Position numbers and translations under genes: made by a program
Virus record (IMG/VR): IMGVR_UViG_3300009433_000015
Location: 1 to 38,060 of that record
DNA from: a virus
DNA: 38,060 nucleotides
Direction: 5' to 3' (one strand)
The notes under the pieces: model-generated
What the model was told of the DNA's origin: nothing
Seen by the model: the letters and a program-made list of their open reading frames with translations, nothing else
Databases searched by the model: none
Shown: positions 8,390 through 37,155 of the stretch, one piece after another
Position numbering within the stretch: the stretch's first letter is position 1
Layout of the letters: every line of letters starts with the position of its first letter

Positions 8390-8977
8390 ATGAGTATTCA
8401 TATCGAACCTGAAGGTGGTATACCGATACCCCCACCCATCAAGGGTAAGGACTTAGTAGAGCGCACGTCAGCCGCTTCTAAAACTATAGAGCTTCTATCG
8501 GAGCATGGATTAGACGTGTCTGTATCCAGTGAAGACAAAGATGTCTCCGCAAAGTTGGCAATGGCTTACGCCGCTGATCCAGTTAAGACATCCAAGAAGG
8601 CCACCCCCACCCGTACCTCCACCCTCACCCCCGCCACACTACTACTTACAGATAAGATTCTAAAAGATTTTGGTCATTCTGTAGTTCAAAGCGCGGCTCA
8701 AGTACGATATTTAGTAACAAACAAGCTCGTAGAAGAGACAGAGAACGAAGATGCGAAGGTCAGACTCCGTGCTTTGGAGCTGTTGGGTAAGATCGCAGAT
8801 GTAGGTTTGTTCGCAGAGCGCACTGAGGTGACAATCACACACCAGTCTACAGATGATTTAAAAGACAAACTAAGGTCCAAACTAGCAAGACTTGTGGAGC
8901 CTGTAGAGGATGCAGTGGTTGTAGACGCAGATGCCATAGACTTAGACAAAGAGTTTGGTCTGAAAGATGACGAGTAA
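8390..8977 (+). CDS. probable terminase small subunit
   Basis: A 195-residue protein directly upstream of, and overlapping by 11 bp, the large terminase gene. The first 75 residues are Pro/Ser-rich. Residues 80-180 are helical (RLRALELLGKIADVGLFAER, then DDLKDKLRSKLARLV), the usual style of DNA-recognition and oligomerisation parts of small terminases. The C-terminus is acidic. No Shine-Dalgarno is seen before the ATG, which is the first start after an in-frame stop. The call rests mostly on position and style. Confidence 0.65.
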   Translation: MSIHIEPEGGIPIPPPIKGKDLVERTSAASKTIELLSEHGLDVSVSSEDKDVSAKLAMAYAADPVKTSKKATPTRTSTLTPATLLLTDKILKDFGHSVVQSAAQVRYLVTNKLVEETENEDAKVRLRALELLGKIADVGLFAERTEVTITHQSTDDLKDKLRSKLARLVEPVEDAVVVDADAIDLDKEFGLKDDE

Positions 8978-10520
8978 TTTAGCAGAAATTGCAACAGACG
9001 TAGACTTCTCTCCAGAGGAGATACAACATATGCTGGACAATCTGGATCAGTTCGCACCCGAAGAACTTAAAGAGATAGATCGGATAGTCGAGGAGTTGTC
9101 TGCGCGGAAGTCGAACACGGCTTCTAAGGACGATCTAATAGAATTTTGTAAACGTATGCAGCCAGACTATAAGGTTGGCAGACATCACCGCATCCTAGCG
9201 AATGAACTTATGGCACTGGAGGATGGGTCAAAAGACAGGGTATGTGTTAACATCCCACCCCGCCACGGTAAGTCGCAGCTTGTGAGTATCTTTTATCCCG
9301 CATGGTTCTTGGGGCGTAACCCAAACAAGAAGGTTATGATGGTCTCTCACACAACAGATCTTGCTGTAGACTTTGGACGTAAGGTTCGTAACCTGATAGC
9401 GACAGACGGGTATAGGGAGATCTTTCCAGATGTCTCCTTGGCAGTCGACAGCAAATCGGCTGGGAGGTGGAATACAAATTTCGGAGGTGAATATTTTGCG
9501 TGTGGTATCGGATCTGCTCTTGCTGGTCGGGGTGCTGATCTTCTGCTTGTTGATGATCCTCACTCTGAGCAGGATGTTATTAACGGAAACTTCTCAGTGT
9601 TTGACAAAGCCTACGAATGGTTCACATTTGGAGCGCGTACTCGACTAATGCCGGGTGGCAGAGTGGCGATTGTACAGACACGTTGGCACATGGATGACCT
9701 CACGGGGCGTGTAACCAACGATATGGTGAAAAATGAGCTGTCTGATCAGTACGAAATAGTGGAGTTTCCCGCACTTTTGGACTCTGATGACGGTACAGTC
9801 AAACCTTTGTGGCCTGAGTTCTTTGATTTAGCAGCCTTGGAGCGTACAAAAGCGTCAATGCCCGCGTTCCAGTGGAACTCACAGTATCAACAGCAACCTA
9901 CAGCCGAAGAAGCGTCTATAATTAAGCGAGAATGGTGGGGGATTTGGCCTCACGATGAGCCACCGCAGGTAGAATACATAATTATGTCGTTAGATGCGGC
10001 AGCGGAGAAGCATAATCGAGCAGATTATACCGCTTTGACTACTTGGGGCGTGTTTTTTAACGAAGAAGAGGGCGCACACCACTTGATTTTGCTAGATTCT
10101 ATCAAAAAACGGTTAGAATTTCCTGAATTGAAGCAGTTATCGATGGATGAGTACCACAAATGGGAGCCAGACGCGTTTATTGTGGAGAAAAAGTCCTCTG
10201 GAGTGGCGATTTACCAAGAAATGAGGCGTATGGGCATACCTGTACAAGAGTACACCCCCCACAGGGGTACTGGAGATAAGATGGCACGGCTCAATTCTGT
10301 AGCTGATATCATTGCATCGGGTATGGCATGGGTTCCATCCACCCGTTGGGCGGAAGAATTAGTAGAAGAAGTAGCGGGATTCCCGTTTATGTCGAATGAT
10401 GACCTTGTGGACAGCACCGTTATGGCGTTATTGCGGTTTCGTCAGGGTGGGTTTATACGCCTACCAACAGATGAGTGGGATGATGAGCCGCAATATCATT
10501 ATAGACGTGAGTATTATTAG
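8967..10520 (+). CDS. terL: terminase large subunit
   Basis: A 517-residue DNA-packaging motor with an ATPase and a nuclease. The N-terminal ATPase has a Walker A-like IPPRHGKS (96-103) and Walker B LLLVDDP with a following acidic residue (192-201). The RNase-H-like nuclease has D343 (IIMSLDAA), E407 (FIVEKKSSG) and D478/D479/D482 (NDDLVDS). Length and motif order are normal for the family. It acts at the portal vertex to cut and pump DNA into proheads. It overlaps the small subunit gene. Confidence 0.95.
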   Translation: MTSNLAEIATDVDFSPEEIQHMLDNLDQFAPEELKEIDRIVEELSARKSNTASKDDLIEFCKRMQPDYKVGRHHRILANELMALEDGSKDRVCVNIPPRHGKSQLVSIFYPAWFLGRNPNKKVMMVSHTTDLAVDFGRKVRNLIATDGYREIFPDVSLAVDSKSAGRWNTNFGGEYFACGIGSALAGRGADLLLVDDPHSEQDVINGNFSVFDKAYEWFTFGARTRLMPGGRVAIVQTRWHMDDLTGRVTNDMVKNELSDQYEIVEFPALLDSDDGTVKPLWPEFFDLAALERTKASMPAFQWNSQYQQQPTAEEASIIKREWWGIWPHDEPPQVEYIIMSLDAAAEKHNRADYTALTTWGVFFNEEEGAHHLILLDSIKKRLEFPELKQLSMDEYHKWEPDAFIVEKKSSGVAIYQEMRRMGIPVQEYTPHRGTGDKMARLNSVADIIASGMAWVPSTRWAEELVEEVAGFPFMSNDDLVDSTVMALLRFRQGGFIRLPTDEWDDEPQYHYRREYY

Positions 10521-13324: not shown

Positions 13325-13705
13325 ATGATTGCGACAGTCAAAGTCGATAACACGAAGGTAGCAGATGACCTTCACGCAAAACTACCAGAACCTACGGGAT
13401 ATAGGCTTCTGATAGCACTTCCAGAGATTGATGAGAAGACAGAGGGCGGAGTATTCATGCCTGATGGCCTTCGTAAAGACGAGTCTACGGCGTCTATTAT
13501 TGGTTTTGTTATAAAATCAGGATCAGATGCGTATTCTGATAAGGACCGCTTTCCTAATGGACCTTGGTGTAAAGAGGGAGATTTTGTAATCTTTCGTTCT
13601 TATTCAGGCACTAGGTTTAAAGTTCAGGGTAAAGAGTTCCGTCTTATAAATGATGACACTGTAGAAGGTGTTGTTGACGATCCAAGGGGGTATACAAGAG
13701 CATGA
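13325..13705 (+). CDS. GroES-like (cpn10) co-chaperonin
   Basis: A 126-residue cpn10 fold. Residues 20-45 read like the family start (PEPTGYRLLIALPEIDEKTE then GGVFMPDG, replacing the host KPLGDRVLV...GGI.LP form). The middle has SIIGFVIKSGSDAY, and the later GDFVIFRSYSGTRFKVQGKEF matches the GDxVLFxxxxGTxxxxxGxEY segment. The middle segment, which in GroES holds the GroEL-binding mobile loop, is altered, and a hydrophobic triplet is not obvious. It sits between portal and scaffold, so it probably adapts host GroEL for capsid-protein folding. Confidence 0.85.
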   Translation: MIATVKVDNTKVADDLHAKLPEPTGYRLLIALPEIDEKTEGGVFMPDGLRKDESTASIIGFVIKSGSDAYSDKDRFPNGPWCKEGDFVIFRSYSGTRFKVQGKEFRLINDDTVEGVVDDPRGYTRA

Positions 13706-18409: not shown

Positions 18410-19087
18410 ATGGCAGTCGTTACACCAGATTTACCTGACATATTTGAAGAAGCTTATGAACGTGCAGGTCTAGAGCTAAACACAGGTTACGATCTTCGAA
18501 CAGCGAGGCGTAGCCTTAATATTATGTTGCTTGAATGGCAGAATAGAGGTCTCAATCTTTTTACGGTTGATTCAGGTGTTTTAAATTTAAGCTCAGGTAC
18601 AGCAACCTACTCTATGCCCATAGACACTATAGATGTAATCGAGCATCAAATAAGGACTGGAACAGGAACAAATCAAGTTGATGCAGCATTGCAACGCATA
18701 TCTGTGTCTACTTACGCAGCTCAATCTAATAAAAATACACAGGGTAAGCCTAGTCAAATATTTGTTCAAAGACTGGCTACAGAAACAAAAGTAACACTTT
18801 GGCCCGTTCCTGACACAGATTATATTTTGGCTTTTCATCGATTAAAGGGAATAGATGGCTTGGCAACGGGCGTTGGCACAACAGCGGCTATACCGCCTAG
18901 GTTTGTTCCGTGTCTTGTTGCAGGTCTTGCGTATCAAATAGCTATGAAAAAACCAGAAGCAATAGCCAGAGTTGTTCCTTTAAAGCAAGAATATGAATAT
19001 CAGTTCGAGCTTGCGGCAGGTGAAGATGCTGAAACAGCATCAATCAAATTTGTGCCGTACAATACATTTATGTTAGGTGGTGGATGA
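18410..19087 (+). CDS. tail adaptor / head-completion protein (gp4/SU10-type)
   Basis: A 225-residue protein with an N-terminal helical bundle (DIFEEAYERAGLELNTGYDL, then RTARRSLNIMLLEWQNRG) and a beta-rich C-terminal part. This is the usual form of portal-docking adaptors related to P22 gp4, T7 gp11 and the SU10 adaptor. It should sit under the portal and seal the filled head. SD AAGGAAA. It overlaps the next gene (ATGA). A second protein of similar type is encoded at 20468-21127. Confidence 0.75.
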   Translation: MAVVTPDLPDIFEEAYERAGLELNTGYDLRTARRSLNIMLLEWQNRGLNLFTVDSGVLNLSSGTATYSMPIDTIDVIEHQIRTGTGTNQVDAALQRISVSTYAAQSNKNTQGKPSQIFVQRLATETKVTLWPVPDTDYILAFHRLKGIDGLATGVGTTAAIPPRFVPCLVAGLAYQIAMKKPEAIARVVPLKQEYEYQFELAAGEDAETASIKFVPYNTFMLGGG

Positions 19088-19938
19088 CAACTGCTAGAAG
19101 TAAATATGCTTTCGGCTTCTGTGACAGGACAGGCTTCAGATATCCACTGAACGAGCTTGTTGATGAGTTCAGGAATGGTGTGAAGACAGGTTTACGTGTG
19201 GGTAGAGACGTGGCTGATGATGACCATCCACAAAATTTTCTTGGCAGGGTTAGAATATTTGATCCTCAAAGTCTTGCACACGCTAGGCCAGATAGGTCTT
19301 TAGAAGAAAGCAGACAGTTGTTTGGGTTTTCTCCTGTATGGAACCCTGCTCAATTTATGACAGGAGCTGTTGGTAGAGTTGCCATAAGTTTCAATGAGGG
19401 CGTGGTGAATGTTACAGGTTCTTCAGCCTCATCTTCTGTTGGATCTGTTGTAGCTAATACATATACCGCAAACTTAAATGCTCCAAATGCTGCTGCGGGT
19501 GGAGTTGGTACAGTTACCATAATAGGCGCAGAAATAACCGCGTTTCCAAATGGTGTTTCTGCTGTAGGAACTACAGGCGTAGCTACTATATCTACCAATG
19601 TAGCACAATCTTTCGCGGTTACTGTAGCTACAGGGTATAGTGGTGGCAATAAATACTTTATAGATGGTATAGAAGCGCCTACAGGAAATCTTAGCGAAGG
19701 AAGTACCTACATATTTGATCAATCTAACGCAAGCAACAGCGGTCATCCATTAAGACTCTCAACAACACCAAACGGAACTCATTCGGGTGGCGTAGAGTAC
19801 ACAACAGGCGTTACAACTGTGGGAACCCCCGGAAACGCAGGTGCTTATACTCAGATCGTGGTAGCTTCAGGCGCACCAACATTATACTACTATTGCACTA
19901 ACCACAGTGGTATGGGAGGCCAAGCGAATACACCTTAA
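19084..19938 (+). CDS. virion protein with C-terminal cupredoxin-like domain
   Basis: A 284-residue protein. Residues 1-95 contain FCDRTGFRYPLNELVDEF and look like a phage-specific docking segment. Residues about 97-175 carry short repeats of the VGTVTI type. Residues about 180-284 form a cupredoxin-like beta sandwich with the complete ligand order: H221 (SGHPL), C271, H274 and M277 (YYYCTNHSGMGG). Type-1 copper sites use His, Cys, His and Met, but in plastocyanin the last loop is longer, so copper binding is a prediction. It overlaps the adaptor gene (ATGA). Confidence 0.7.
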   Translation: MTTARSKYAFGFCDRTGFRYPLNELVDEFRNGVKTGLRVGRDVADDDHPQNFLGRVRIFDPQSLAHARPDRSLEESRQLFGFSPVWNPAQFMTGAVGRVAISFNEGVVNVTGSSASSSVGSVVANTYTANLNAPNAAAGGVGTVTIIGAEITAFPNGVSAVGTTGVATISTNVAQSFAVTVATGYSGGNKYFIDGIEAPTGNLSEGSTYIFDQSNASNSGHPLRLSTTPNGTHSGGVEYTTGVTTVGTPGNAGAYTQIVVASGAPTLYYYCTNHSGMGGQANTP

Positions 19939-22596: not shown

Positions 22597-23814
22597 ATGA
22601 CTATAAACAGAAATTTAGCAAAGTTTGCTCCAAGTATTAACACTTCAGGAAAAGCAGCAGTTGCAACAATAACGGTCACGGTTGCGTCTGTCGGGGGTAG
22701 CAACAAATACCATATTGATGGAACAGATAGGCAAACCATATCTCTTTCAAAAGGTATTACATATCGCTTTGACAATAGTAATAGCACAAACAGTGGACAT
22801 CCATTTGTCTTCTCAACAACTTCAGATGGCACACATAATAGCGGTTCAGCATTTACCACAGGAATTACGACAGTTGGAACCGCAGGTTCTGCAGGTGCTT
22901 ATGTAGAGGTCACACTAGAACAGGATGCAGCAGCTACCCTTTATTACTATTGCTCTAATCATAGTGGCATGGGTGGGACAGTAAAAACCGCATATGGTAA
23001 TGCGAGTGTAGTCGAAGATACTAGCCCTCAATTAGGCGGTAGTCTTGATGTAAACGGTAATGCAATCGTATCGGTATCAAACGCCAACATTTCAATTACG
23101 CCGAACGGCTCTGGTAAAGTTATTCTTGATGGGCTTTCTCACCCAACAGCGGATGGTAGCGCAGGACATGTCTTAAAGACAGATGGCTCTGGTAACCTAG
23201 CGTTTGCGTCTGTCGGATCACTTTCTGGTTCAGGAATTACAGATGTAGTAGATGATACCTCTCCACAACTGGGTGGTAACTTAGATGTCAACGGTAATGA
23301 TATTGTCTCAACATCTAATGCCAACATAGACATTATCCCTCACGGCACTGGCGATGTTAACTTAGGTGCTGATACAGTGATGGTTGGCGACAATAACGCT
23401 AATGCAACGATTACTACGCAAGGTACTGGAGATTTAACTCTAAATACTAACTCAGGGACAAACTCTGGAACGGTAACTATCGCTGATGGCGCAAATGCAA
23501 ACATATCAATTACACCTAATGGATCTGGTAAGGTTGTTTTAGATGGCATCAGTCACCCCACGGCAGACGGCACTAACGGACAGGCTCTTGTAACTAATGG
23601 TAGCGGTGTTCTTAGTTTCTCAACAATATCAGGGGGTAGTGGCGGTGGAGCTACAGGTGGCGGTAGTGACGAAGTTTTCTATGAGAACGATCAGGCTGTG
23701 ACAACTAACTATTCAATAAGCGCAAGTCACAATGCTATGAGCGCAGGGCCAATAACAGTAAATAACGGTATAACAGTAACAGTTCCTTCAGGAGTTAGGT
23801 GGGTTGTTCTTTAG
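22597..23814 (+). CDS. fibre protein: cupredoxin-like domain plus GG(N/S)LDVNG repeats
   Basis: A 405-residue protein. Residues about 22-130 are a cupredoxin-like domain with the ligand set H68, C119, H122, M125 (YYYCSNHSGMGG), a close relative of the domain at 19084-19938. Residues about 135-340 are a repetitive stalk with TSPQLGG(S/N)LDVNGN, NANI(S/D)I and PNGSGKV units, typical of trimeric beta-helical fibre shafts. The last 60 residues are Gly/Ser-rich, then a hydrophobic beta end. It probably forms a fibre whose base carries the cupredoxin module. Confidence 0.75.
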   Translation: MTINRNLAKFAPSINTSGKAAVATITVTVASVGGSNKYHIDGTDRQTISLSKGITYRFDNSNSTNSGHPFVFSTTSDGTHNSGSAFTTGITTVGTAGSAGAYVEVTLEQDAAATLYYYCSNHSGMGGTVKTAYGNASVVEDTSPQLGGSLDVNGNAIVSVSNANISITPNGSGKVILDGLSHPTADGSAGHVLKTDGSGNLAFASVGSLSGSGITDVVDDTSPQLGGNLDVNGNDIVSTSNANIDIIPHGTGDVNLGADTVMVGDNNANATITTQGTGDLTLNTNSGTNSGTVTIADGANANISITPNGSGKVVLDGISHPTADGTNGQALVTNGSGVLSFSTISGGSGGGATGGGSDEVFYENDQAVTTNYSISASHNAMSAGPITVNNGITVTVPSGVRWVVL

Positions 23815-23834: not shown

Positions 23835-24971
23835 ATGCCAGAATTAAAAGTAGACGCGATTGTTAATTTAGCAGGATCAGGTAAACCAAACTTGCCTGTT
23901 GCTCCAACTGTAGGAAGCAACGCAGCCATAAGCACACTAAACACACACTCGTATACATCTTCTGGTACGGAGCCAAGCACCCCCAAAAATGGAGCCTTGT
24001 GGTGGGACAGCGCTAACGACAAAGTTATGGTTTATATAGACAGTGAGTTTAAAGAGATAAGCCTAAATGCTGATGCCGGTGGCGCGATTTGGTATGGCGC
24101 GAGAGCGTTGTTCTTCTCAGGTTACACGACTGCAGCGTCTGCAAATGTAAATACCATACAATATGTTGCCCCTGCTACGGCAGGAAACGCTGCAGATTTT
24201 GGTGATGTTACGGTTGCTAGAACAGATGGAGCTGCATGTTCCAATGGAACTAGGGCTATCTTTGGTGGCGGTTACGCTTCTGCTCTTTCAAATGTTATAG
24301 ATTACGTTACCACAGCGACAACAGGCAATGCTCAAGACTTCGGCGATATGTTAGAGACTGGTAGTGGTCACGCAGCTCTTTCTGATGGAACGAAAGGTGT
24401 ATTCGCAGGTGGTTACATGAGTACTAGTTCAAATGCTGTAGTAAATACTATTCAGTTTGTGACCATTGATACTGCAGGAAATATGGCAGATTTTGGTGAT
24501 TTATTAGCAACTCAAAGACGTATGGCAGGAACTTCTGATGCTACTCGCGGCCTTTTTGCAGGGGGTGAAGGGCCATCAAATGTTATTCAATACATTACAG
24601 TAGCCAATGCAGGTAACGCTACAGACTTTGGTGATTTGACAGTAGCCACGCAGAAGCAATCAGGAGCAAGTGACGCTACTAGATCTTTGTTTATGGGCGG
24701 TGAAACATCTGGTAGGACTAATACTATTGTGTATGTAACAACAGCAAACGCAGGAAACGCTACAGATTTTGGGGATCTAACAGAAGCAACTGAGAGCGGC
24801 TCTTCTACTAATGACGATATTTATGCTGTTAGAGGTGGTGGAGGCACAAGTGGTGGTCGAACTAACGTAATAGATCGTGTTACAATACAAACCGCAGGAA
24901 ACGCATCAGACTTTGGAGACCTTCTCGCAGGAAACCAAGGACTTCGTGCTTCATCAGGAGCAGCATCATGA
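23835..24971 (+). CDS. six-repeat propeller-type tail fibre, paralogue 1 (type A N-terminus)
   Basis: A 378-residue fibre. Residues 1-75 are an attachment module with a GALWWDSANDKVMVYI signature. Residues about 85-370 contain six kelch-like units of about 48 residues. Each has a Thr-Asn-x-I-x-Y-V-T strand, a GNA-x-DFGD segment and then a S-D-x-TRG-x-FxGG turn. Six units suggest a six-bladed beta-propeller for glycan or protein contact. It ends SSGAAS. It overlaps the next paralogue by ATGA, with the SD inside the conserved end. Confidence 0.8.
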   Translation: MPELKVDAIVNLAGSGKPNLPVAPTVGSNAAISTLNTHSYTSSGTEPSTPKNGALWWDSANDKVMVYIDSEFKEISLNADAGGAIWYGARALFFSGYTTAASANVNTIQYVAPATAGNAADFGDVTVARTDGAACSNGTRAIFGGGYASALSNVIDYVTTATTGNAQDFGDMLETGSGHAALSDGTKGVFAGGYMSTSSNAVVNTIQFVTIDTAGNMADFGDLLATQRRMAGTSDATRGLFAGGEGPSNVIQYITVANAGNATDFGDLTVATQKQSGASDATRSLFMGGETSGRTNTIVYVTTANAGNATDFGDLTEATESGSSTNDDIYAVRGGGGTSGGRTNVIDRVTIQTAGNASDFGDLLAGNQGLRASSGAAS

Positions 24972-26113
24972 GTGAAATAGATAGAATAACAAAGATTACA
25001 GACAGAGCAGGTTCTGGCGCTCCTAATTTTACTTTTGGTGTAAACTTCGCAGGAGCTGACAGTGGCATAAATCCTCACACGCACACAGAAAGCGCAAGTG
25101 AACCCGGAAGCCCTAATAACGGAGACACTTGGTGGGACAGCGACAACGACATCTATAAAGTCTACATGGACAATGCATGGAAAGACTGGTTGGGAACGAC
25201 TGCTGCTGCATTTACTTGGGGTGGTGACAGGCACGTTTATCACATTGGCTACGACTCAAGCTACAGTAACAAAATAGAGTATCAAAGCATTACAACTGCA
25301 GGAAATGCCGCAGATTTTGGTGATACGCTTGGTTCAACGTTCAGCGGTGCAGCATGTGGAAATGGTAGTAGAGGTGTATTTTCCGCAGGGTGGGGGGCAG
25401 GAAGTAACTCTGAGACTAATGTCATGGAATACATTACTACATCTACCACTGGCAATGCCACAGATTTTGGTGATCTGACAGCAGTAAAAAAACAAGTGAT
25501 GGCAACTTCAGATGGTACAAGAGGGCTTATCGCGGGGGGCGTAGGTGCAAGCAGTGCTAATCTTGATGTTATAGAGTACATAACTATAGCTAATACAGGT
25601 AACGCTACAGACTTTGGTGACCTATCTTCTGCAACTATAAAATGGGGTTCTGCTTTTAATGACGCAACTCGCAGTGTTATTAATGATGGAGCTTCTGATG
25701 CAGCTACAGCAATTATGGAGTATGTAACGACTCAGACCGCAGGGAACGCTACAGACTTTGGAGATCACCTCAACGGAGAGCAACATGGAGCGTGTTCTGA
25801 TGCTACAAGGGGTTTAATATGCGGTGGTGAAACAGCAGCGGCAGGAACTCGAACAAATGTTATAAGTTATGTGACAACTCAAACCGCAGCAAATTCCGCA
25901 GACTTTGGGGACCTAACTATGGCACGATCTAGGTGTGGAGCTGCATCAGACGGAACATATGCTACTATAGTAGGTGGAAGACCGGCGTCTGGAAGTTTAA
26001 ATGGCACTATAGATAAGGTTACAGTTCAAACCGCAGCGAACGCAACTGATTATGGGGACATGGCAACTTCAGATGGTCAATATATAGAGTCTGTTTCAGG
26101 AGCAGCATCATGA
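24968..26113 (+). CDS. six-repeat propeller-type tail fibre, paralogue 2 (type B N-terminus)
   Basis: 381 residues. The N-terminus (DRITKITDRAGSGAPNFTFG) and a PHTHTESASEPGSPNNGDTW segment define type B, shared with paralogue 4. WWDSDNDIYKVYM is the common signature. The body holds six repeats with GNA(A/T)DFGD, then two degenerate forms ANSADFGD and ANATDYGD. Blade loops differ strongly from paralogue 1, as expected for receptor-facing loops. Confidence 0.8.
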   Translation: MSEIDRITKITDRAGSGAPNFTFGVNFAGADSGINPHTHTESASEPGSPNNGDTWWDSDNDIYKVYMDNAWKDWLGTTAAAFTWGGDRHVYHIGYDSSYSNKIEYQSITTAGNAADFGDTLGSTFSGAACGNGSRGVFSAGWGAGSNSETNVMEYITTSTTGNATDFGDLTAVKKQVMATSDGTRGLIAGGVGASSANLDVIEYITIANTGNATDFGDLSSATIKWGSAFNDATRSVINDGASDAATAIMEYVTTQTAGNATDFGDHLNGEQHGACSDATRGLICGGETAAAGTRTNVISYVTTQTAANSADFGDLTMARSRCGAASDGTYATIVGGRPASGSLNGTIDKVTVQTAANATDYGDMATSDGQYIESVSGAAS

Positions 26114-27324
26114 GTACAATAAAAGTAGATACAGTAAAAAACAGAAGCAGCGCCATCAACCTACCTAACAACTTCAAAATAGGCGGCTCCAATATTGTAC
26201 AAGGCTACACTTCGTCTGGTAGCGAACCCGGTAGTCCTTCAACAGGTGACTTCTGGTGGGACAGCAGTAACGACAAACTGTATAGATATATTAGTGGTGA
26301 ATTTAAGGAACTAACTTTAGGCGGGGCTTCTGCTCCTGTTTGGGGTGGATTAAAAGGTTTTACCACAGGTGGCGGCGCTTATACTAATGCTGCAGGTTCT
26401 GGTGACCCACAGGGGCCAAGTAATGGTAACCTGACACAGATAGATTACTGGACAATAAATGATAGCACACAGGCTACTGATTTTGGTGATCTTAATATGA
26501 CTCAACCCAACTACACTTATGGAGCGAGTAATAATACAAGAGGTGTAATTGCTTCTGGTTACCAAGGTAGCGGAACAGCCGCAAATCAAATAGACTACAT
26601 AACCTGTGCCACAGCAGGAAATGCTTCTGATTTTGGAGATCAATCTGTTGAAAGAACTACTAGTATGGGGGCTGTTGGTAATGGAACTCGTGGTATCTTC
26701 GGTGGCGGATATAGTTTTGGAGCCAGTGGTTACGTTAACACCATTGATTATGTAACTATCGCTACTACAGGTAATGCTGTAGACTTTGGGGATCTGTTAG
26801 GAGGGGAAACTGGTAATACAGGCGTATTGAAAAGTGGAGGCTATTCTAATGACGAAACTACTGGGCTGTTCATGGGTGGTCATACACAAAACGTGACCAC
26901 TTATCAAAATAGAATACAAAAAATAACTATGGCGACAGCAGGAAATGCTTCTGATCATGCAAATCTTACTATTGTAAACGCCTATATGGTAAAGGGTGTA
27001 ATATCTGATAACACAACTGGACTAGTTGGGGGTGGTTACAGCTCTAATCATGGTGATATTCAGTCTATTGATAGGTTTACTATTGCCACTGGCGCAAATG
27101 CTACTGATCATGGAGATTTACCTAATGCGGTTGCTGATGGTGGCGCTGCTTCTAACGGAACTCAGGGAGAGTTTTTCGGAAGTAGTCTAGGAGCAGGGAT
27201 TGCCAGTGGCCCCAATCTTGATGGAAGAAGGTATGTAGTTACCATAGCAACCGCAGGTAATGCCTCTCTTATGGGGAATCTTGCTATTAGGTGGTATGGT
27301 ACTGCGGGTTTTTCTGGAGCCTAG
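26110..27324 (+). CDS. six-repeat propeller-type tail fibre, paralogue 3 (type C N-terminus)
   Basis: 404 residues, the longest copy. The type C N-terminus (MSTIKVDTVKNRSSAINLPN) with GDFWWDSSNDKLYRYI is shared with paralogue 5. Its six repeats are more divergent: QATDFGDL, GNASDFGDQ, GNAVDFGDL, then GNASDHANL, ANATDHGDL and GNASLMGNL. The C-terminus ends TAGFSGA without the usual AAS, and its junction with the next gene lacks the conserved 20-bp sequence. Confidence 0.8.
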   Translation: MSTIKVDTVKNRSSAINLPNNFKIGGSNIVQGYTSSGSEPGSPSTGDFWWDSSNDKLYRYISGEFKELTLGGASAPVWGGLKGFTTGGGAYTNAAGSGDPQGPSNGNLTQIDYWTINDSTQATDFGDLNMTQPNYTYGASNNTRGVIASGYQGSGTAANQIDYITCATAGNASDFGDQSVERTTSMGAVGNGTRGIFGGGYSFGASGYVNTIDYVTIATTGNAVDFGDLLGGETGNTGVLKSGGYSNDETTGLFMGGHTQNVTTYQNRIQKITMATAGNASDHANLTIVNAYMVKGVISDNTTGLVGGGYSSNHGDIQSIDRFTIATGANATDHGDLPNAVADGGAASNGTQGEFFGSSLGAGIASGPNLDGRRYVVTIATAGNASLMGNLAIRWYGTAGFSGA

Positions 27325-27325
27325 A

Positions 27326-28492
27326 ATGAGTGACGTAGTCGGCATAGAAAAGATCACAGACAGGGCAGGGACAGGTGCGCCTGACTTTACCAACGGTTTT
27401 AACGTAGCGGGATCTGACAGCGGCATAAGTCCACATGCTCACACAGAAAGTGCAAATGAACCTTCTAGCCCATCTAATGGGGATGCGTGGTGGGACAGCG
27501 ACAATGATATTTACAAAGTATATATGAATAATGAGTGGAAAGATTGGTTGGGTACAACTGCCCCTTCAATAACTTGGTTTGGTGATAGAGCTATAATATG
27601 GAATGCATCATCAGGAGCATCATCAAACTATGGAAACAATATAGAATATTTTGACATTACTACTACAGGAAATGCTTCAGCTTTTGGAAATCAACTGGCA
27701 ACAACTCAAAACGTAGGTACTGGTGGGGATAGGGCGTTTTCTAATGGTTCTAGAATTGTTTGTTGTATATATCGAACGGGTAGTGATGGCCTTGAATATA
27801 TAACATCTTCTACTCTAGGAAATGCTACAGACTTTGGAAATGTGCAAAGTTGGGAATCAGGACATACATCTGTTAGCGATGGAACTAATGGTTATCATGG
27901 CGCAGGTAACGGGACAAATAGTTATGAGAATGAAATACAAAAAACTGTAATTGCCACCCTTGGTAATGCTGTTGATTCTGGATATGATTTTACAAGCAGT
28001 ATGAGAGGTGCAGGAACTTGGGGCAATACTGCTAGAGGTGTCTTTGCGGGAGATTCTATAGCGGGGCCATCAAATCAAATAACGTACATAGCATTCCCTC
28101 TTGGTGCAAACGCTGCAGATTTTGGTGATTTAACTCTTGGTAGGAACTATCCGTCAGGTGGAGGAGATACTACTAGGGCTGTGTTCTCTTCAGGTTGGAA
28201 CTCAAACAACTCTTCAGGTAGCAGAGCTGTAAATACAATAGATTACATTACTATAGGGACTACAGGAAATGCTACTGACTTTGGAGATTTAAATGTAGCA
28301 ACATCTGAAAATGGTTCTGCATCGAATGCGACTCGTGTTTGTATGTGTAATGGTTACTATGATCACTCTGGTGCGGGTAGGACTGATAGAATAGACTATG
28401 TGACCACTCAAACTACAGGAAATGCTACTGACTTTGGAAATATGACAGGGGCAGGATCGCAAGCAGAAGGTTCTTCAGGAGCAGCATCATGA
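27326..28492 (+). CDS. six-repeat propeller-type tail fibre, paralogue 4 (type B N-terminus)
   Basis: I start at the ATG at 27326, one base after the preceding stop. A longer frame start at 27260 would lie within the previous gene. 388 residues with type B N-terminus (IEKITDRAGTGAPDFTNGFN) and WWDSDNDIYKVYM. The repeats include two weak ones (GNASAFGNQ and GNAVDSGYD). Its N-terminus resembles paralogue 2 and its 3' junction resembles paralogues 1 and 2, consistent with B-C pair duplication. Confidence 0.8.
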   Translation: MSDVVGIEKITDRAGTGAPDFTNGFNVAGSDSGISPHAHTESANEPSSPSNGDAWWDSDNDIYKVYMNNEWKDWLGTTAPSITWFGDRAIIWNASSGASSNYGNNIEYFDITTTGNASAFGNQLATTQNVGTGGDRAFSNGSRIVCCIYRTGSDGLEYITSSTLGNATDFGNVQSWESGHTSVSDGTNGYHGAGNGTNSYENEIQKTVIATLGNAVDSGYDFTSSMRGAGTWGNTARGVFAGDSIAGPSNQITYIAFPLGANAADFGDLTLGRNYPSGGGDTTRAVFSSGWNSNNSSGSRAVNTIDYITIGTTGNATDFGDLNVATSENGSASNATRVCMCNGYYDHSGAGRTDRIDYVTTQTTGNATDFGNMTGAGSQAEGSSGAAS

Positions 28493-29631
28493 GTACGATT
28501 AAGGTAGATGAGATATTTGGTGAAACAGACGCATCTGCTATTAATTTCCCCAACAAGTTTAAAGTAGGAGGGTTAAGCGCAGAGCAGGGTTACACCGCTA
28601 GTGGCTCAGAGCCATCTTCTCCTAGCAATGGAGACTACTGGTGGGATACTGGTAACGATAAACTCTATCGATATATAGATGGCGGGTTTAAAGAGCTTGG
28701 TATGGCTGCAGGTGGCGCTTGGTTCGGAGACAGGGGCATAACTGCAGGTGGTAAGACTTCCAACTCAAGTGGTAAAATCAATACGATTGAGTACAAAGAT
28801 ATAACAAGTTCAGGCAATGCAACTGATTTTGGCGATTTATCTGTCCAAAAGGATGGTATTGGTAGTGTTTCAGATGCTAGTAGAATAGTTTACGGTGGTG
28901 GTAACAACAACGCAGGTGATAACCTTAATACTATGGAATACATAACTATATCTACTACTGGGAATGTTACTGATTTTGGTGATTTAACCTCAGAAGGTCA
29001 TGGGCTTAGATATTATGTAGGTGGTTTTTCTGATGCGAGTAGAGGGGTATTTGCATCTTGGTCTTACGGTTCTGATATGGAATATATCAGCATACAGACA
29101 TTAGGTAATGGTACAAACTTTGGCGAGTTAAGCAATAATGTAGGGTATAACGGAATGAATACGGGTTCAGATGGAACTTATGGTATAATGGGGGGTGGTT
29201 TTGCTAGCAGCGGTGTGAACGTAATACACCGTGTGACAATCCAAACTGCAGCAGATTCTGTTGATTTTGGCGATTTGACTGTAGGAAGGGGTGGCTCCGG
29301 TCATTCTACTGCTATTAGTAATGCTGCTCGCGTTTGTTTTGCAGGAGGTATATCTGGTAGCGGTACTACTAGTAATGTAATAGATTACGTTGTAGCTGCA
29401 AATGCAGGGAACGCTACGGATCTTGGGGATCTTGGTGTGGCAATGCGCAATGCTTCTGGAACCAATAATGCCACATTAGGAATTTTATGCGGGGGTAGTA
29501 GTGATAACGGAACAACATTTAGAAACGATATTCAGAAGTTTACAATAGAGACAGCGGGTAATGCTTCTGATTATGGGGATCTTACTGCGGCAAAACAGGT
29601 TTCTAATAGTGCCTCAGGAGCAGCATCTTAA
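28489..29631 (+). CDS. six-repeat propeller-type tail fibre, paralogue 5 (type C N-terminus)
   Basis: 380 residues with type C N-terminus (STIKVDEIFGETDASAINFP), the GDYWWDTGNDKLYRYI signature and six repeats, of which three are variant (GNGTNFGEL, ADSVDFGDL, GNATDLGDL). It ends SASGAAS, encoded by the same end sequence as paralogues 1, 2 and 4, but followed by a stop and a fresh SD rather than an overlapping start. It therefore closes the array. Confidence 0.8.
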   Translation: MSTIKVDEIFGETDASAINFPNKFKVGGLSAEQGYTASGSEPSSPSNGDYWWDTGNDKLYRYIDGGFKELGMAAGGAWFGDRGITAGGKTSNSSGKINTIEYKDITSSGNATDFGDLSVQKDGIGSVSDASRIVYGGGNNNAGDNLNTMEYITISTTGNVTDFGDLTSEGHGLRYYVGGFSDASRGVFASWSYGSDMEYISIQTLGNGTNFGELSNNVGYNGMNTGSDGTYGIMGGGFASSGVNVIHRVTIQTAADSVDFGDLTVGRGGSGHSTAISNAARVCFAGGISGSGTTSNVIDYVVAANAGNATDLGDLGVAMRNASGTNNATLGILCGGSSDNGTTFRNDIQKFTIETAGNASDYGDLTAAKQVSNSASGAAS

Positions 29632-30809: not shown

Positions 30810-31814
30810 ATGTTTGGCTTTTATCCAGTAGCATCGGCTGCAATAGCTGATGATCAGTCAGGGGTAATCGTTCCGGTTACTGTCTCCGTTACTGGGTTAA
30901 GCGCAACAACATCTATAGGAACTTCTACAGTAACAGGCGCTGTAGATACACCACAGACAGGTCTTGGTTCCACAGGTGGAGTTGGAACCCTTACCGTTAC
31001 AGGTGTTGGTAACATCGATGCCACTGGTGTTGAAATAGCCGCATCTACAGGTGCATTAGTAGTAAGCATACCAAAAGCTGTGGACGTATCTGGTCTTCAA
31101 GCATCAGTTAGCTCAAATGGTGTGACTGTAGACGGGGCGGCAGATGTAGTTGAGACTGGCCTTCAAGCATCTACTGGAGTTGGCAGCGCTGCCATAAGCG
31201 GTCTAGCAAATACATCAGTAAGTGGATTGACAGCTACAGGTTCTGTTGGTTCTGCAAATATTTCTATAGATGCTTCAGTCTCAGTAACAGGCGTGACCTC
31301 TAGTACTGCAATTAGTGGAGTTAGCGTTTCTAGTCTTGCTAATGTAGCTATTACAAGTCCATCAGTAAATGGATCTGCAGGGGCTGTAACGACAATAGGT
31401 ACAGCCGATATACCATCAACAGGGCTTGCAGGTTCTAGTTTAGTCGGATCTGTAACAACTGTTTCTGCAGCAAACATATCGGTAACTGGTATACCCGCAA
31501 CTATATCTACAAGTTCAGTTACACCGTACATATCATTTCCGACAACAGCGGAAGGTTCTTCTGGGCTTGTCGGGAGTGTAGCAATATCAGCTAAAGCAGG
31601 AATCTTTGTAACGGGTGTTTCTGCGGGGACTGCTGTTGGTCAAGTAAAAATGTTTACTCAGGTAGATCCATTACAAGAAGTTGATCCAAACCCATATTCA
31701 GCCTTTGTTATAGACGTTCCAGTAGATAATGTGTACACTGACATAAATTTAGCGGTCGATGAATCTGGCCCACCAGTATGGACAGATTTAGATATAGAAA
31801 ATGAAGCAGCTTAG
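30810..31814 (+). CDS. 22-residue repeat virion protein, 334 aa
   Basis: Nearly the whole of residues 20-285 is made of about twelve tandem 22-residue repeats, each with an x-x-V/S-TGL start, then V/I-G-S/T and a second V-S-G/A-x-A-N/D. The low charge and alternating valines predict a stacked beta-solenoid. Residues 285-334 form a different acidic C-terminal cap (NPYSAFVIDVPVDNVYTDIN). A long, stiff fibre or spike shaft is likely. Shorter copies of the same unit occur in the proteins at 19084-19938 and 35795-36349. Confidence 0.7.
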   Translation: MFGFYPVASAAIADDQSGVIVPVTVSVTGLSATTSIGTSTVTGAVDTPQTGLGSTGGVGTLTVTGVGNIDATGVEIAASTGALVVSIPKAVDVSGLQASVSSNGVTVDGAADVVETGLQASTGVGSAAISGLANTSVSGLTATGSVGSANISIDASVSVTGVTSSTAISGVSVSSLANVAITSPSVNGSAGAVTTIGTADIPSTGLAGSSLVGSVTTVSAANISVTGIPATISTSSVTPYISFPTTAEGSSGLVGSVAISAKAGIFVTGVSAGTAVGQVKMFTQVDPLQEVDPNPYSAFVIDVPVDNVYTDINLAVDESGPPVWTDLDIENEAA

Positions 31815-31852: not shown

Positions 31853-32590
31853 ATGCCTAGTACATTCACAACGAACACGGGTATAGAGAAGCCCGCACAG
31901 GGTGAGCAGTCTGGTTCTTGGGGTATAACCGTAAATACAAATAGTGATATACTTGATCGCGCACTTAATGGCGTTGTTTCGTTGAGTCTTTCAGGAACAT
32001 CTAGCAATCTTACAACAAGTAATGGCTCGACATCAGACGGGCAAAACAAAGTCCTTCTTTGTAGCGGAACGTTAGCAGCGGCTCATACTATCACCATATT
32101 ACCTGCAGATGCACAAAAAGTTTACTATGTAAAAAATAGCTCAAGTCAAACACTTATATTCTCTCAAGGCTCTGGCGCTTCTACAGCAAGTTTGCCCACG
32201 GGTTCATTTGCAATTATATATGCTGATGGAAGTAATAATGTTGTTAATCTTATAGATGACTCTCAAGCAGGTCAGCTTAAACAAAACGGAACTGCTGTTA
32301 CATCCTCTGCTGCAGAGCTTAATACCTTAGACGGTGTTAGCGCCTCATTAGAAGCCGCAGATTTAAACTTTTTAGATGGAGCAGCGGTAAACACTGTTGT
32401 CTCTTCAAAAGCTGTTATCTACGGAAGTAGTGGTGAAATTCAGGCGGGTTTGGTAGATTTTGGAGCGTGGACTATAGATGAGGCAGGTGATAAATTAGTT
32501 TTTTACTATAATGGATCTCCTAAGTTTAGCATAAACTCTTCTGGCGCAGCAGTCGCTGCAAATGATGTGACAGCATATGGATCGCCGTAA
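31853..32590 (+). CDS. tail fibre/appendage protein, 245 aa
   Basis: The N-terminus (FTTNTGIEKPAQGEQSGSWG) with ITVNTNSDILDRALNGVVSL is the recurring start of a phage tail protein family in marine and enteric phages (G-x2-P-x-x-G-E-Q-SG-SWG). Residues about 60-160 are beta-rich. A later segment (AELNTLDGVSASLEAADLNF) is a Leu-rich turn repeated in fibres. Probably a fibre or spike attachment protein. SD AGGAGAG. Confidence 0.65.
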   Translation: MPSTFTTNTGIEKPAQGEQSGSWGITVNTNSDILDRALNGVVSLSLSGTSSNLTTSNGSTSDGQNKVLLCSGTLAAAHTITILPADAQKVYYVKNSSSQTLIFSQGSGASTASLPTGSFAIIYADGSNNVVNLIDDSQAGQLKQNGTAVTSSAAELNTLDGVSASLEAADLNFLDGAAVNTVVSSKAVIYGSSGEIQAGLVDFGAWTIDEAGDKLVFYYNGSPKFSINSSGAAVAANDVTAYGSP

Positions 32591-33306
32591 TGGGCTTACC
32601 AAACGCAGGAGTTCCGTTAAGTTTAGATGATATTCAAGATGAGTTTGGTGGGTCTAACCCAATAGGTTTGTCTGAATACTTTTCTGCTGCTTCTGGCGTA
32701 CCTGCAGTAAATAACCCTATTTCTGTAAGTGATTTCTATGGCGCAGCAAACGCTGTAAGTTTTACTTACGAAATTATAGGTGGAGGTGGTGGTGGAGGCT
32801 ACGGATTAGAGGATGGCTATGGTTCTACTGCTAGAGCAGGGAGCGGAGGAGATTCTAGTATAACAGCTTCTGGCCTTACAACTATAACTTCATCTGGAGC
32901 GCAGGGTGGGACACATGCTACCATTTCTTGGAATACAGCCGTAGGCAGGGAGGGTGATTCTTCACACTATGGTGCAGGGCCAGTAGGCACTCCCAATGGC
33001 GTTGCAGGAGCGTCAGCCACAGCATCTCACTACGGTGCAGGTGGTGCAGGGGGAGGAGGAGACTCTCCTAGTAAATTCGACAGCTCAGGCGGCGGAGGAG
33101 AGGGTGGAGATGCTTCAAGCCAACAAACGGGTACAGCCACTGTTGTAAGCGGTACGACCCTTACGATAAGTATTGGATCTGGAGGCGCAGGAGGCACTGG
33201 GGGAAACCATGTGGGTGGCAATGGGGCGGGCGGTTTTGTGCAAATTGTGGTTGGCAGTAACGTACATCCTTTTACATCTAATGGAACTTTAACATTAACG
33301 AGTTAA
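32590..33306 (+). CDS. Gly-rich adhesin, candidate receptor-binding protein
   Basis: 238 residues. Residues 1-55 carry an N-terminal docking module (GVPLSLDDIQDEFGG and NPISVSDFYGA) shared with the protein at 36586-37155. Residues about 60-225 are extremely Gly-rich with GGGGGGGYG, AGGAGGGGDS and GSGGAGGTGGNHVGGNGAGG blocks. These resemble the polyglycine-helix adhesins (gp38-like) of phage tail tips. It starts at the stop of the preceding gene. Host-range determinant by inference. Confidence 0.7.
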   Translation: MGLPNAGVPLSLDDIQDEFGGSNPIGLSEYFSAASGVPAVNNPISVSDFYGAANAVSFTYEIIGGGGGGGYGLEDGYGSTARAGSGGDSSITASGLTTITSSGAQGGTHATISWNTAVGREGDSSHYGAGPVGTPNGVAGASATASHYGAGGAGGGGDSPSKFDSSGGGGEGGDASSQQTGTATVVSGTTLTISIGSGGAGGTGGNHVGGNGAGGFVQIVVGSNVHPFTSNGTLTLTS

Positions 33307-33872: not shown

Positions 33873-35795
33873 ATGGTACTACAAAAAATGCAATTTAGGC
33901 CCGGTATAAACACGGAGCTTCCTGATTATGCCAATGAAAACGGTTGGAATGATGGTGACAAAATACGGTTCAGAGAAGGTTACCCAGAAAAAATAGGTGG
34001 TTGGGCTAAAAAAGGTGATAATCAGTTTATAGGCGCGGCTCGCGCTATGAAACATTGGACTACTTTAGACAGAGACAACCTTATCGGTATCGGCACTTCT
34101 TTAAAGTATTTTATAGAAGATGGTGGTGTATTTTATGACATCACACCTATTAGAGAAACAACAGGTGCAGGTGATGTAACCTTCTCTGCCTCTCAGGGCA
34201 GTAGCGTTATAACTGTAAGCGACACCAATCATGGTGCTAGGGAAGGTGACTTTGTTACTTTTAGCGGAGCTGCTAGTTTAGGCGGTGCTATGACTGCGGC
34301 TGTCCTCAATCAGGAATATCAAATTCAAACTGCCCCAACAACAGGCACATACACGATTAATGCAAGAGCAGCTACTACAGGTATAAATCAATACTACACA
34401 GGCGGAGCTATAGATGACAGTGCTGCTTTAGTGACTGCTACATCAGGTGATACAAATACTGGGGGTAGCTCTACTGTAGGTGCTTACCAGATACAGACTG
34501 GTGTGGACGTTACATTGTTCGGTAATGGTTGGGGTGCAGGTGTTTGGTCTAGAGGTGCTTGGAACTCAAGAGCAACCATTGTGGTTCAGTCAGAAATCCT
34601 ACGTTTATGGCAACACGATACGTTTGGGGAAGATCTTATTTATAATATAAGGAACGGCCCTATATTCTACTGGGATGCATCTGGAGGTGCTTCACAAAGA
34701 GGTATTTTCTTAAAAGATTTAAATGGCGCTCAAGATTCTCCAATCGTAGCTAAACAAGTAATAGTATCAGATGTGGATAGGCACGTTATTGCTTTTGGGT
34801 GCAACCCACTTGGGTCTAACGTACAAGATCCTTTGCTTATTAGGTTCTCAGCACAAGAGAACCCTGCAGATTGGAGACCTTTGACCACTAACACAGCAGG
34901 AGATCTCCGCATAGGTTCTGGTACAGCGATAATTCAAGCTGTTGAAACAAGACAAGAGATACTTGTGTTTACAGACCAAGCCTTGCATTCAATGCAGTTT
35001 ATAGGGCCACCTTATACTTTTGGTATTAACCGAATATCAGAGAACATAACTATTAGAAGTCCTAATGCTGCTGTTGCTATTGGTGACGCTGTATACTGGA
35101 TGGGTAAAGATCAGTTCTATGTTTATAATGGTAACGTCAATCAACTAGATTGCACCGTGAGAGAGAAGATTTTAAGAGATATAAATGATGATCAGTTAGA
35201 AAAGATATTTGTTGGTGTTAATTCTGGATATCAAGAAATATGGTGGTTTTACCCATCTCTAACTAGCAATGATGTGGATAAGTATGTTGTCTACAATTAC
35301 GATGCTAACATTTGGTATTACGGCACGTTAAACAGGACTGCGTGGGTTGATCGAGGGGTAACAGATTATCCTGTAGCTGCAGGTACAGATGGGATATTAT
35401 ATAATCACGAATATGAGGCAGATGATCAAAGCGGAGCAGCGCCTGTTGCTATAGAATCTTTTATACAATCTGCGCCTATAGACTTGGGCGATGGAGAGGT
35501 GTTTAGTTATGTTCGAAGGTTAATTCCAGATGTGACCTTTAGAAACAGCACTAATTCATCACCTCAAGTAGATTTTACTGTAGATGCTTTTAATTACAAT
35601 GGTGGCTTACAAGTAAGCTCTGATACAGCAAACATCGTAAAATCAGCTTCTGTTCCTATAGAGCAATATACAGAAAAAGTGGATCTTAGAGTTAGAGGAA
35701 GATCTATAGCTATAAAAATAAGTTCTGATCAAGTAGGCACAACGTGGAGAACAGGATTAAATAGATTAGATATTCGGCCTGATGGTAAGAGATAA
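33873..35795 (+). CDS. tail hub / DNA-stabilisation protein (P22 gp10-like)
   Basis: 640 residues. The N-terminus FRPGINTELPDYANENGWND followed by DKIRFREGYPEKIGGW is a diagnostic start for the hub proteins that follow portal adaptors in podoviruses and marine phages. The rest is beta-rich, with no transmembrane helix. A propeller-like W/Y pattern and a C-terminal region (RSIAIKISSDQVGTTWRTGL) follow. By comparison with P22 gp10 it would plug the packaged head and attach the fibres or needle. It is the largest tail-module protein. Confidence 0.75.
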   Translation: MVLQKMQFRPGINTELPDYANENGWNDGDKIRFREGYPEKIGGWAKKGDNQFIGAARAMKHWTTLDRDNLIGIGTSLKYFIEDGGVFYDITPIRETTGAGDVTFSASQGSSVITVSDTNHGAREGDFVTFSGAASLGGAMTAAVLNQEYQIQTAPTTGTYTINARAATTGINQYYTGGAIDDSAALVTATSGDTNTGGSSTVGAYQIQTGVDVTLFGNGWGAGVWSRGAWNSRATIVVQSEILRLWQHDTFGEDLIYNIRNGPIFYWDASGGASQRGIFLKDLNGAQDSPIVAKQVIVSDVDRHVIAFGCNPLGSNVQDPLLIRFSAQENPADWRPLTTNTAGDLRIGSGTAIIQAVETRQEILVFTDQALHSMQFIGPPYTFGINRISENITIRSPNAAVAIGDAVYWMGKDQFYVYNGNVNQLDCTVREKILRDINDDQLEKIFVGVNSGYQEIWWFYPSLTSNDVDKYVVYNYDANIWYYGTLNRTAWVDRGVTDYPVAAGTDGILYNHEYEADDQSGAAPVAIESFIQSAPIDLGDGEVFSYVRRLIPDVTFRNSTNSSPQVDFTVDAFNYNGGLQVSSDTANIVKSASVPIEQYTEKVDLRVRGRSIAIKISSDQVGTTWRTGLNRLDIRPDGKR

Positions 35796-36349
35796 TGGCA
35801 GACAACCCACTACCAAGATACTTCTTTGGTGTACCGCCAAAAGACTATGATCCAAACTACATGCGTGAGTTGGTTAGGTCTTTTTCTTTATTTCAGGAAC
35901 AGTTGACAAATCCGGGCAAAGTTACAGCAAACGAATTAAACTTATTACCGGAAGGTGGTGGTATAAGGCAGTTTGCAAACAATGTAGAAGCTTATGCTGC
36001 AGGTCTTAAGCCGGGCGATATGTGGATGCTTTCTACAGGTGAAGTTAGAATTACCATTGATCCTAATGTAACAGTGCCAGTAAATATTGAGTTTTTTAGG
36101 TCTGGTATAGGACAGGTGGGTACTGTAGCTACATTTGATGCTTCTGCAGAAATAGAGCAGCCAGTATTCTTTACAGGACAAGGTCAAGCAGGAAGTGTCA
36201 ATGTTGCCGTTATATACACCATTTCAGGCACAGTGCCGACCTCCACATCTGCTGTGGGATCAGTATCTACAGCATCTGCCTATTCTTTGACTGGAACTGC
36301 TGCGTCTGCTAGTTCTGGCGTGGGTGAGGTAACAGTTAGTATAACATAA
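35795..36349 (+). CDS. tail protein with VG-type repeats, 184 aa
   Basis: Residues 1-55 (LPRYFFGVPPKDYDPNYMRE, SLFQEQLTNPG) form a helical docking part. Residues about 75-90 read LSTGEVRITI. Residues about 105-184 are three to four copies of the 22-residue unit also seen at 30810-31814 (TGQGQAGSVNVAVIYTISGT, SAVGSVSTASAYSLTGT). It follows the hub gene (stop-start overlap), so it may be a base component displaying a short solenoid. Confidence 0.65.
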   Translation: MADNPLPRYFFGVPPKDYDPNYMRELVRSFSLFQEQLTNPGKVTANELNLLPEGGGIRQFANNVEAYAAGLKPGDMWMLSTGEVRITIDPNVTVPVNIEFFRSGIGQVGTVATFDASAEIEQPVFFTGQGQAGSVNVAVIYTISGTVPTSTSAVGSVSTASAYSLTGTAASASSGVGEVTVSIT

Positions 36350-36358
36350 GGAGTTATT

Positions 36359-36586
36359 ATGTCTGACACAGTAATAAATATGCCTGATGGCTCGAAATGG
36401 TCACCTTCTTCGTCTACGGATGTAGTAAAGTGTGCAAATTGTGAAAACGAGGTAGATACACCTGCAGAGATTGCATCATACCCTGATGGCGATTGCCCAG
36501 ATTGTGGAGAGCCTTGGACAGGCAGTGAAGTAAGAAAAACTACAATATCAGTTACAGCACCTGCTAAGATTAGTGGCGCTACCTAA
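36359..36586 (+). CDS. small zinc-ribbon protein, 75 aa
   Basis: Two CxxC pairs, C25-x2-C28 (KCANCEN) and a later CPDC, separated by 17 residues, form a zinc ribbon. A Ser/Thr-rich C-terminal tail (TTISVTAPAKISGAT) follows. It lies inside the tail module and carries no enzymatic motif, so it may be structural or regulatory. Metal binding is inferred from the cysteines. SD AAGGAG. Confidence 0.65.
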   Translation: MSDTVINMPDGSKWSPSSSTDVVKCANCENEVDTPAEIASYPDGDCPDCGEPWTGSEVRKTTISVTAPAKISGAT

Positions 36587-37155
36587 TGACACTACCTTCC
36601 TTTGGGGTTCCGTTAAGCTTAAACCAAATTCACATTGAAGTTGGTGGTACAAGCGGGACTACGGTTTCTTTAAATGAGACTGATATCAGAGGTTTAATAA
36701 GCAAGACTGTAAATACTTCTAACTCTATATCAGACTATTATGGGGCAAGCTCTGTTCCGCCTTATACCAGTCCGATTGTATCTGGTGATGGTTTTTTCTG
36801 GTGGTATTCTATGTCTATTTTTCAGGGTCAGCCAAGTCCACAATTTACTTTTTCTGGTGTTGTTGTGAAGTTAGGGGGCAATATTGTTAAAGGAAGTTTT
36901 ACAGCCTTTGCTAGTAATGGTGGATTAAATCCATCTTCGGGACAATCTTGGCATAATGGAACCAATACTCAAAATAACAATCTTACCTTTTTAGCAAATA
37001 TATCATATACGCACACAGACGGATTTACTTATGTGCCTAACAGTCCTGTTGTTCCGGGAGATACATCAACTTATCCAACAACTAATCTTGGAGGAAGTCT
37101 TCCCGTACAACAAAGTGCTTATGACGCTGTAGGAATTAAACTACAGGGAACGTAA
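36586..37155 (+). CDS. second adhesin-type protein with shared docking module, 189 aa
   Basis: The N-terminal module (FGVPLSLNQIHIEVGGTSGT, later NTSNSISDYYGA) matches that of the Gly-rich adhesin at 32590-33306. The C-terminal 130 residues are aromatic and Gly/Ser/Asn-rich (SGDGFFWWYSMSIFQGQ, later LNPSSGQSWHNGTNTQNNN) without the polyglycine blocks. Two genes sharing a dock but differing in the distal domain suggest alternative receptor-binding tips. Confidence 0.65.
   Translation: MTLPSFGVPLSLNQIHIEVGGTSGTTVSLNETDIRGLISKTVNTSNSISDYYGASSVPPYTSPIVSGDGFFWWYSMSIFQGQPSPQFTFSGVVVKLGGNIVKGSFTAFASNGGLNPSSGQSWHNGTNTQNNNLTFLANISYTHTDGFTYVPNSPVVPGDTSTYPTTNLGGSLPVQQSAYDAVGIKLQGT

Follow-up and report, generated by a model that had tools for sequence, protein, structure and literature searches.

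The window, by which we mean the whole 38,060-base stretch of DNA analyzed here, is the entire IMG/VR record IMGVR_UViG_3300009433_000015 and belongs to a tailed phage, whose portal and major head proteins match PHROGs and whose terminase large subunit has its nearest relatives (44–47% identity) in 023Pt_psg01, DSL-LC04, and the Pelagibacter phages HTVC027P and HTVC023P. As the final ORF reaches the contig end, part of the genome may be missing. HTVC023P-type phages are reported to belong to the most abundant phage groups of the ocean (PMC10149686). Their adsorption apparatus is nearly devoid of annotation. At 13325–13705, the window also encodes a protein resembling phage GroES-like co-chaperonins, and the annotated GroES of HTVC027P is found at the matching place before the head genes. 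The features that concern us here are an array of 22-residue repeats, the fibre gene that follows it, and two further genes carrying the same type of unit (table 1).

Table 1. Positions in the window of the array gene, its parts, its downstream neighbor, and the two other carriers of the repeat unit
Feature	Position	Strand	Description
Array gene	30810..31814	+	334 aa; N-terminus MFGFYPVASAAIADD, twelve 22-residue units, Asp/Pro/Trp-containing C-terminal tail
Ten consecutive exact 22-residue units	30876..31535	+	Residues 23–242
Two weaker terminal units	31536..31655	+	Residues 243 to ~282; one step of ~20 residues
C-terminal tail containing Pro, Tyr, and Trp	31656..31811	+	
Downstream fibre gene	31853..32590	+	N-terminus MPSTFTTNTGIEKPAQGEQSGSWG; phrog_31104
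Second carrier	19084..19938	+	phrog_28581-like N-terminal domain, ~4 units (residues 90–178), C-terminal cupredoxin-like domain
Third carrier	35795..36349	+	Conserved N-terminal part (MADNPLPRYFFGVPP...), then ~4 units to the C-terminus (residues 98–184)

A 22-Residue Repeat Array before a Fibre Gene

The 22-residue period that a preliminary description of this DNA had noticed in 30810–31814 proved real. Indeed, the BLOSUM autocorrelation of its product is dominated by lag 22 (0.58), with lag 44 in second place (0.35), against 0.05 for the 99.9th percentile of the highest value reached at any lag by each of 1000 shuffles; a unit HMM finds 12 matches, and if the sequence is laid out in rows of 22, units 1–10 align without any insertion and units 11 and 12 are weaker. 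The units have diverged from one another (mean pairwise identity of 29% at the protein and 44% at the DNA level), which explains why Tandem Repeats Finder reported no repeat. The array is composed at 76% of T, S, G, A, and V, with 4.5% charged residues, 0.5% aromatic residues, and no Cys. Along each unit, hydrophobic residues alternate, the TG and VG turns are near-invariant, and the charges lie almost all at outward-looking positions, the consensus in regular homologues being NVsVTGLeATGsVGSVTVtAdA. An antisense ORF of 122 aa that spans the array (31163–31531, minus strand) most likely arises as a shadow of codon bias in the repeats.

The repeat family is real, widespread, and unnamed in the libraries searched: no family covering the array was found in Pfam, PHROG, or PDB sequences, and neither array alignment retrieved a sequence relative from the PDB. 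Close relatives of the array gene include L002 (92%), L003–L005 and L007 (60–62%), and L006, L011, and L012 (50–53%), and at least 525 related stretches of IMG/VR were reached through the more regular version of the array in L033. Across the 107 array ORFs of the loci covered, a step of exactly 22 residues separates the members of 950 of the 1053 consecutive unit pairs, and complete array genes hold about 5–19 units each. Arrays also occur on contigs labeled Pelagibacteraceae, Rhodobacteraceae, Oceanicoccus, and Euryarchaeota in a genome collection, which may be viral contigs binned with their hosts. Among named phages, HTVC023P (gp68), HTVC027P (gp68), and the lake phage DSL-LC04 (WJZ48131.1) have, like the window, the same type of unit immediately ahead of a tail gene carrying the shared N-terminus; their number of units differs from that of the window, HTVC027P and DSL-LC04 start with a GWG..WG module unlike the window, and all three proteins are annotated as “hypothetical protein,” with no annotation of the repeat. 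The repeat also goes unmentioned in the published passages available on these phage groups, and partial coverage of the literature on 22-residue repeats, phage beta-solenoid repeats, and phage cupredoxins returned nothing on the array family. The C-terminal tail of the window protein probably corresponds to the “PxQxPxWxxIAA” tails seen in its homologues. Two further motifs recur across phages, namely an 11-residue C-terminal repeat, “PxQxPxWxxxx,” in the L033, L072, L082, and L083 genes, and GWGxxxWGxxxWG segments that open, or sit between, arrays (L033:3489–4382, L072:1844–2425, L082:1150–2280, and L083:38930–39895).

From an evolutionary perspective, the expansion that had been suggested for this repeat is visible in the family as changes of array length by whole units. 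A single clean 22-residue gap separates 35795–36349 from its orthologue in L169 (L169–L171 being without exactly one unit), another separates L158 from L161 (496 and 474 aa), and the range of unit numbers per gene given above points the same way. In the L152 array, units reach 97% DNA identity, which implies recent duplication there and in other arrays with near-identical units, but not in the window. Moreover, the number of units is near-constant among the window, L002, L006, L011, and L012, so that length tuning is unsupported for the lineage of the window itself.

The genomic context of the array is remarkably constant. A gene with a GExSGxWG-type fibre N-terminus lies 3′ of all 76 distinct array genes whose neighbor was within reach (median gap of 11 bp), although these genes stem from few search seeds and therefore do not represent 76 independent lineages. 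The same array-then-fibre order is seen in HTVC023P, HTVC027P, DSL-LC04, L008, and L254, and the downstream neighbor matches phrog_31104 in the window, HTVC023P, DSL-LC04, and L008.

The Repeat Unit in Two Further Genes

The preliminary description had further proposed that one repeat module is spread over three genes, a proposal that an absence of statistical similarity among their units would have contradicted; such similarity was found. Using a unit HMM trained only on 30810-type arrays from other genomes, with local shuffles of the same region as a null, the array region of 19084–19938 scored 42.4 bits (p=0.0005; 30.9 for the reversed sequence) and the C-terminal region of 35795–36349 scored 22.7 bits (p=0.0125), the reversed sequence of the latter scoring higher (25.4). 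Whole-protein shuffles had suggested that the two extra genes were equally secure, a view that was dropped once reversing the 35795 sequence was seen not to lower its score, for which reason local shuffles and orthologues were adopted. The case of 35795–36349 is thus weaker on HMM scores and leans on its period and orthologues: its lag-22 signal is strong (best autocorrelation lag, 0.62, p=0.0003), and its orthologues in L164 and L165 reach 32.5 and 30.9 bits (p=0.0005) with the out-of-genome HMM. As for 19084–19938, among the 45 relatives whose linker could be excised by rule, 38 have a linker significant at p<=0.05. The units are spaced by 22–23 residues in the window copy of this gene and mostly by 22–25 in its family, when the steps in 35795–36349 are 24, 22, and 22. 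Unit-to-unit identity is low, and “the same unit” in three genes is therefore to be understood at the level of the profile. Other Ser/Thr/Gly-rich virion ORFs of the window gave HMM scores not clearly above those of their own shuffles, and a weak score in an antisense ORF at 8698–9057 was taken as chance given the many ORFs scanned. Gene order and matches to tail-fibre PHROGs suggest that the three carriers encode virion proteins.

The distribution of the unit could have arisen by transfer between these genes, as the preliminary description envisaged. Recent transfer among the three genes of the window is rejected by our observations, since the DNA of their arrays is no more alike than codon-shuffled sequence; the three arrays are also mutually no closer than they are to the arrays of other genomes. 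The domains fused to the repeat tell of its history as well. In relatives of 19084–19938, the array joins the N-terminal domain (which carries CxxC pairs in L194, L202, and L222) to a C-terminal cupredoxin-like domain, which in the window spans residues ~180–284 of 19084–19938 and recurs at residues ~20–130 of 22597–23814. Both copies display the copper-ligand pattern of cupredoxins, His...Cys-x2-His-x3/4-Met (SGHP...YYCxNHSGMG), and are putative copper-binding domains; PF00127 (plastocyanin/azurin) scores 20.9 bits on 22597–23814, for a cut-off of 21.2 (E 5e-4), and no sequence relative of the domain was found in the PDB. The domain is also met in homologues of the array gene, inside the array within the second unit (L003, L007, and L020) or near the N-terminus before the array (L018 and L023). 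In a tree of these domains, each gene family forms one clade, so the fusions look old and appear to stay in place, and any transfer would be old too. In Roseobacter phage CRP-901, the N-terminus of gp53 marks it as an apparent orthologue of 19084–19938; this protein carries relatives of the unit at shorter spacing, and at its end a GWG motif takes the place of the cupredoxin-like domain.

Predicted Fold and Comparison with Known Shafts

The solenoid put forward in the preliminary description is recovered in the model of a homologue and not in that of the window protein itself, whose AlphaFold 2 model, built on 10 sequences, was discarded as uninformative (pLDDT 38). For the homologue, L092, whose units average 59% identity, AlphaFold 2 used 41 aligned sequences and returned a monomer model (pTM 0.69) in which residues 60–150, or about four units, reach a pLDDT of about 86–92. 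In this model, the protein is a parallel beta-solenoid with one coil per unit and a single run of extended strand every 22 residues. It has been reported that AlphaFold 2 gives confident yet unrealistic beta-solenoids for near-perfect repeats, betrayed by stacked internal charges (PMC11795689); here, hydrophobic residues point inside and charges outward, which argues for a true solenoid without proving it. Among the structures ranked by Foldseek, which this comparison covered, VIA-align superposed the L092 model on right-handed parallel beta-helices, best on that of phi29 gp12 (Z 18.9, with an rmsd of 3.2 A over 253 residues), then on several tailspikes and pectinase-type helices (Z 16–18). 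Plain Foldseek against the PDB gave no match with E below 0.07, and in a viral library the top two matches (E 4e-7 and 7e-4), at 34–42% identity, are both uncharacterised and come from uncultured phages.

These resemblances invite a comparison with shafts that are already known. The beta-helix shafts of phi29 gp12 and of the HK620, Sf6, and Pam1 tailspikes superpose on the L092 model (Z 16–19) with a similar coil size, and right-handed beta-helix tailspikes would share with the array a place in the phage adsorption apparatus, which for the array we infer. The array differs from them, however, in that it has no sequence match to them (no tailspike or lyase family was found for the 30810 product in Pfam or PHROGs), no long loops, and no enzyme domain seen, and in that it consists of regular sequence repeats of variable number in a small protein, the fibre being encoded by a separate gene downstream. 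The viral fibre shafts of triple beta-spiral and collagen-like type are, as the array rod would be, elongated and made of short tandem units whose number sets the length, but their units count ~15 and 3 residues, respectively, instead of 22; the array is without Gly-X-Y, and lag 15 is absent from the top autocorrelation lags of 30810–31814. Short-repeat shafts are already known in phages; with respect to the libraries searched, what is new here is the unit, which is reused in three structural genes, keeps a fixed place ahead of a fibre gene, and is gained or lost as a whole.

Possible Role of the Array

On this basis, we favor with moderate confidence the view that the array serves the tail-fibre apparatus as a beta-solenoid spacer rod and that its unit recurs as a stalk in other virion proteins. 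Each 22-residue unit would form one coil of a parallel beta-solenoid, and the coils would stack into a short rigid rod, roughly 5–6 nm long for twelve units; beta-helices rise by about 0.5 nm per coil unit. In 30810–31814, the rod would sit between a small N-terminal anchor and the aromatic C-terminal tail, and the product may act as an accessory rod, be it a spacer, a collar, or a shaft, partnering the phrog_31104-type fibre of the next gene, its invariable fibre neighbor being the strongest hint that the two work together. In 19084–19938, the units would form a stalk linking the N-terminal domain to a cupredoxin-like tip, in 35795–36349 a stalk-like C-terminal extension, and the gain or loss of whole units would alter reach. 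A role as a spacer setting shaft length, one of the possibilities raised in the preliminary description, fits both the domain architectures and the gene order; the other, that of contacts between matching solenoids, is more conjectural. A broader version of this view, which we put forward as a tentative and rather unlikely one, is that the unit is a widespread, so far unnamed 22-residue beta-solenoid module that would serve several virion proteins of abundant marine phages as an interchangeable length-setting rod (anchor, rod, and tip), such that coil gain or loss tunes how far the various parts of a single particle extend and rods of different proteins possibly stack.

The fact that the best look-alikes of the L092 model include tailspikes and carbohydrate-active beta-helices, together with the location of the array gene inside the fibre module and the variation of its units in number and outward residues, could also suggest that the array itself is a beta-helical adhesin or spike contacting the receptor, with unit number and surface residues altering specificity. 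We consider this improbable, as the coils are short and plain, without long loops, with few charges and almost no sugar-binding aromatics, and as a different domain occupies the tip in the 19084 family. Slightly less probable still is a product decorating the head or neck rather than the base of the tail fibre: in 48 of the 76 cases (identified by N-terminal motif), the array gene lies directly 3′ of a phrog_644-like gene near head/connector genes, and the virion location of the product is itself deduced, but the coupling to the downstream fibre gene is invariant and the array gene of the window lies within the fibre region, ~14 kb from the major capsid gene. The least probable reading, that of a flexible low-complexity Ser/Thr/Gly/Val linker of no defined fold whose period merely records its duplication history, draws on the biased composition, the poor model of the window protein, and the bias of AlphaFold 2 toward solenoids (PMC11795689), but sits poorly with a strict register and hydrophobic alternation that persist at 29% unit identity, when drift in unit length would be expected of a linker under no constraint.

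Whatever its role, a recognizable unit that flags the pre-fibre gene, recurs in structural genes, and shifts by whole units offers a handle for annotating these genomes, and it lets the tuning of fibre geometry by coil number be tested. Other repeated features were noted in the window. Five successive genes at 23835–29631, of ~380–410 aa each, have in common an N-terminal “SGSEPxSPxNGDxWWDxxND” segment and carry repeated “TAGNATDFGDL” blocks; they apparently form a tandemly duplicated family, possibly propeller-like. Finally, the genes at 32590–33306 and 36586–37155 share an N-terminus of the type “LPxxGVPLSLxxIxxExGG,” which is also found in two consecutive genes of L018 and L020.
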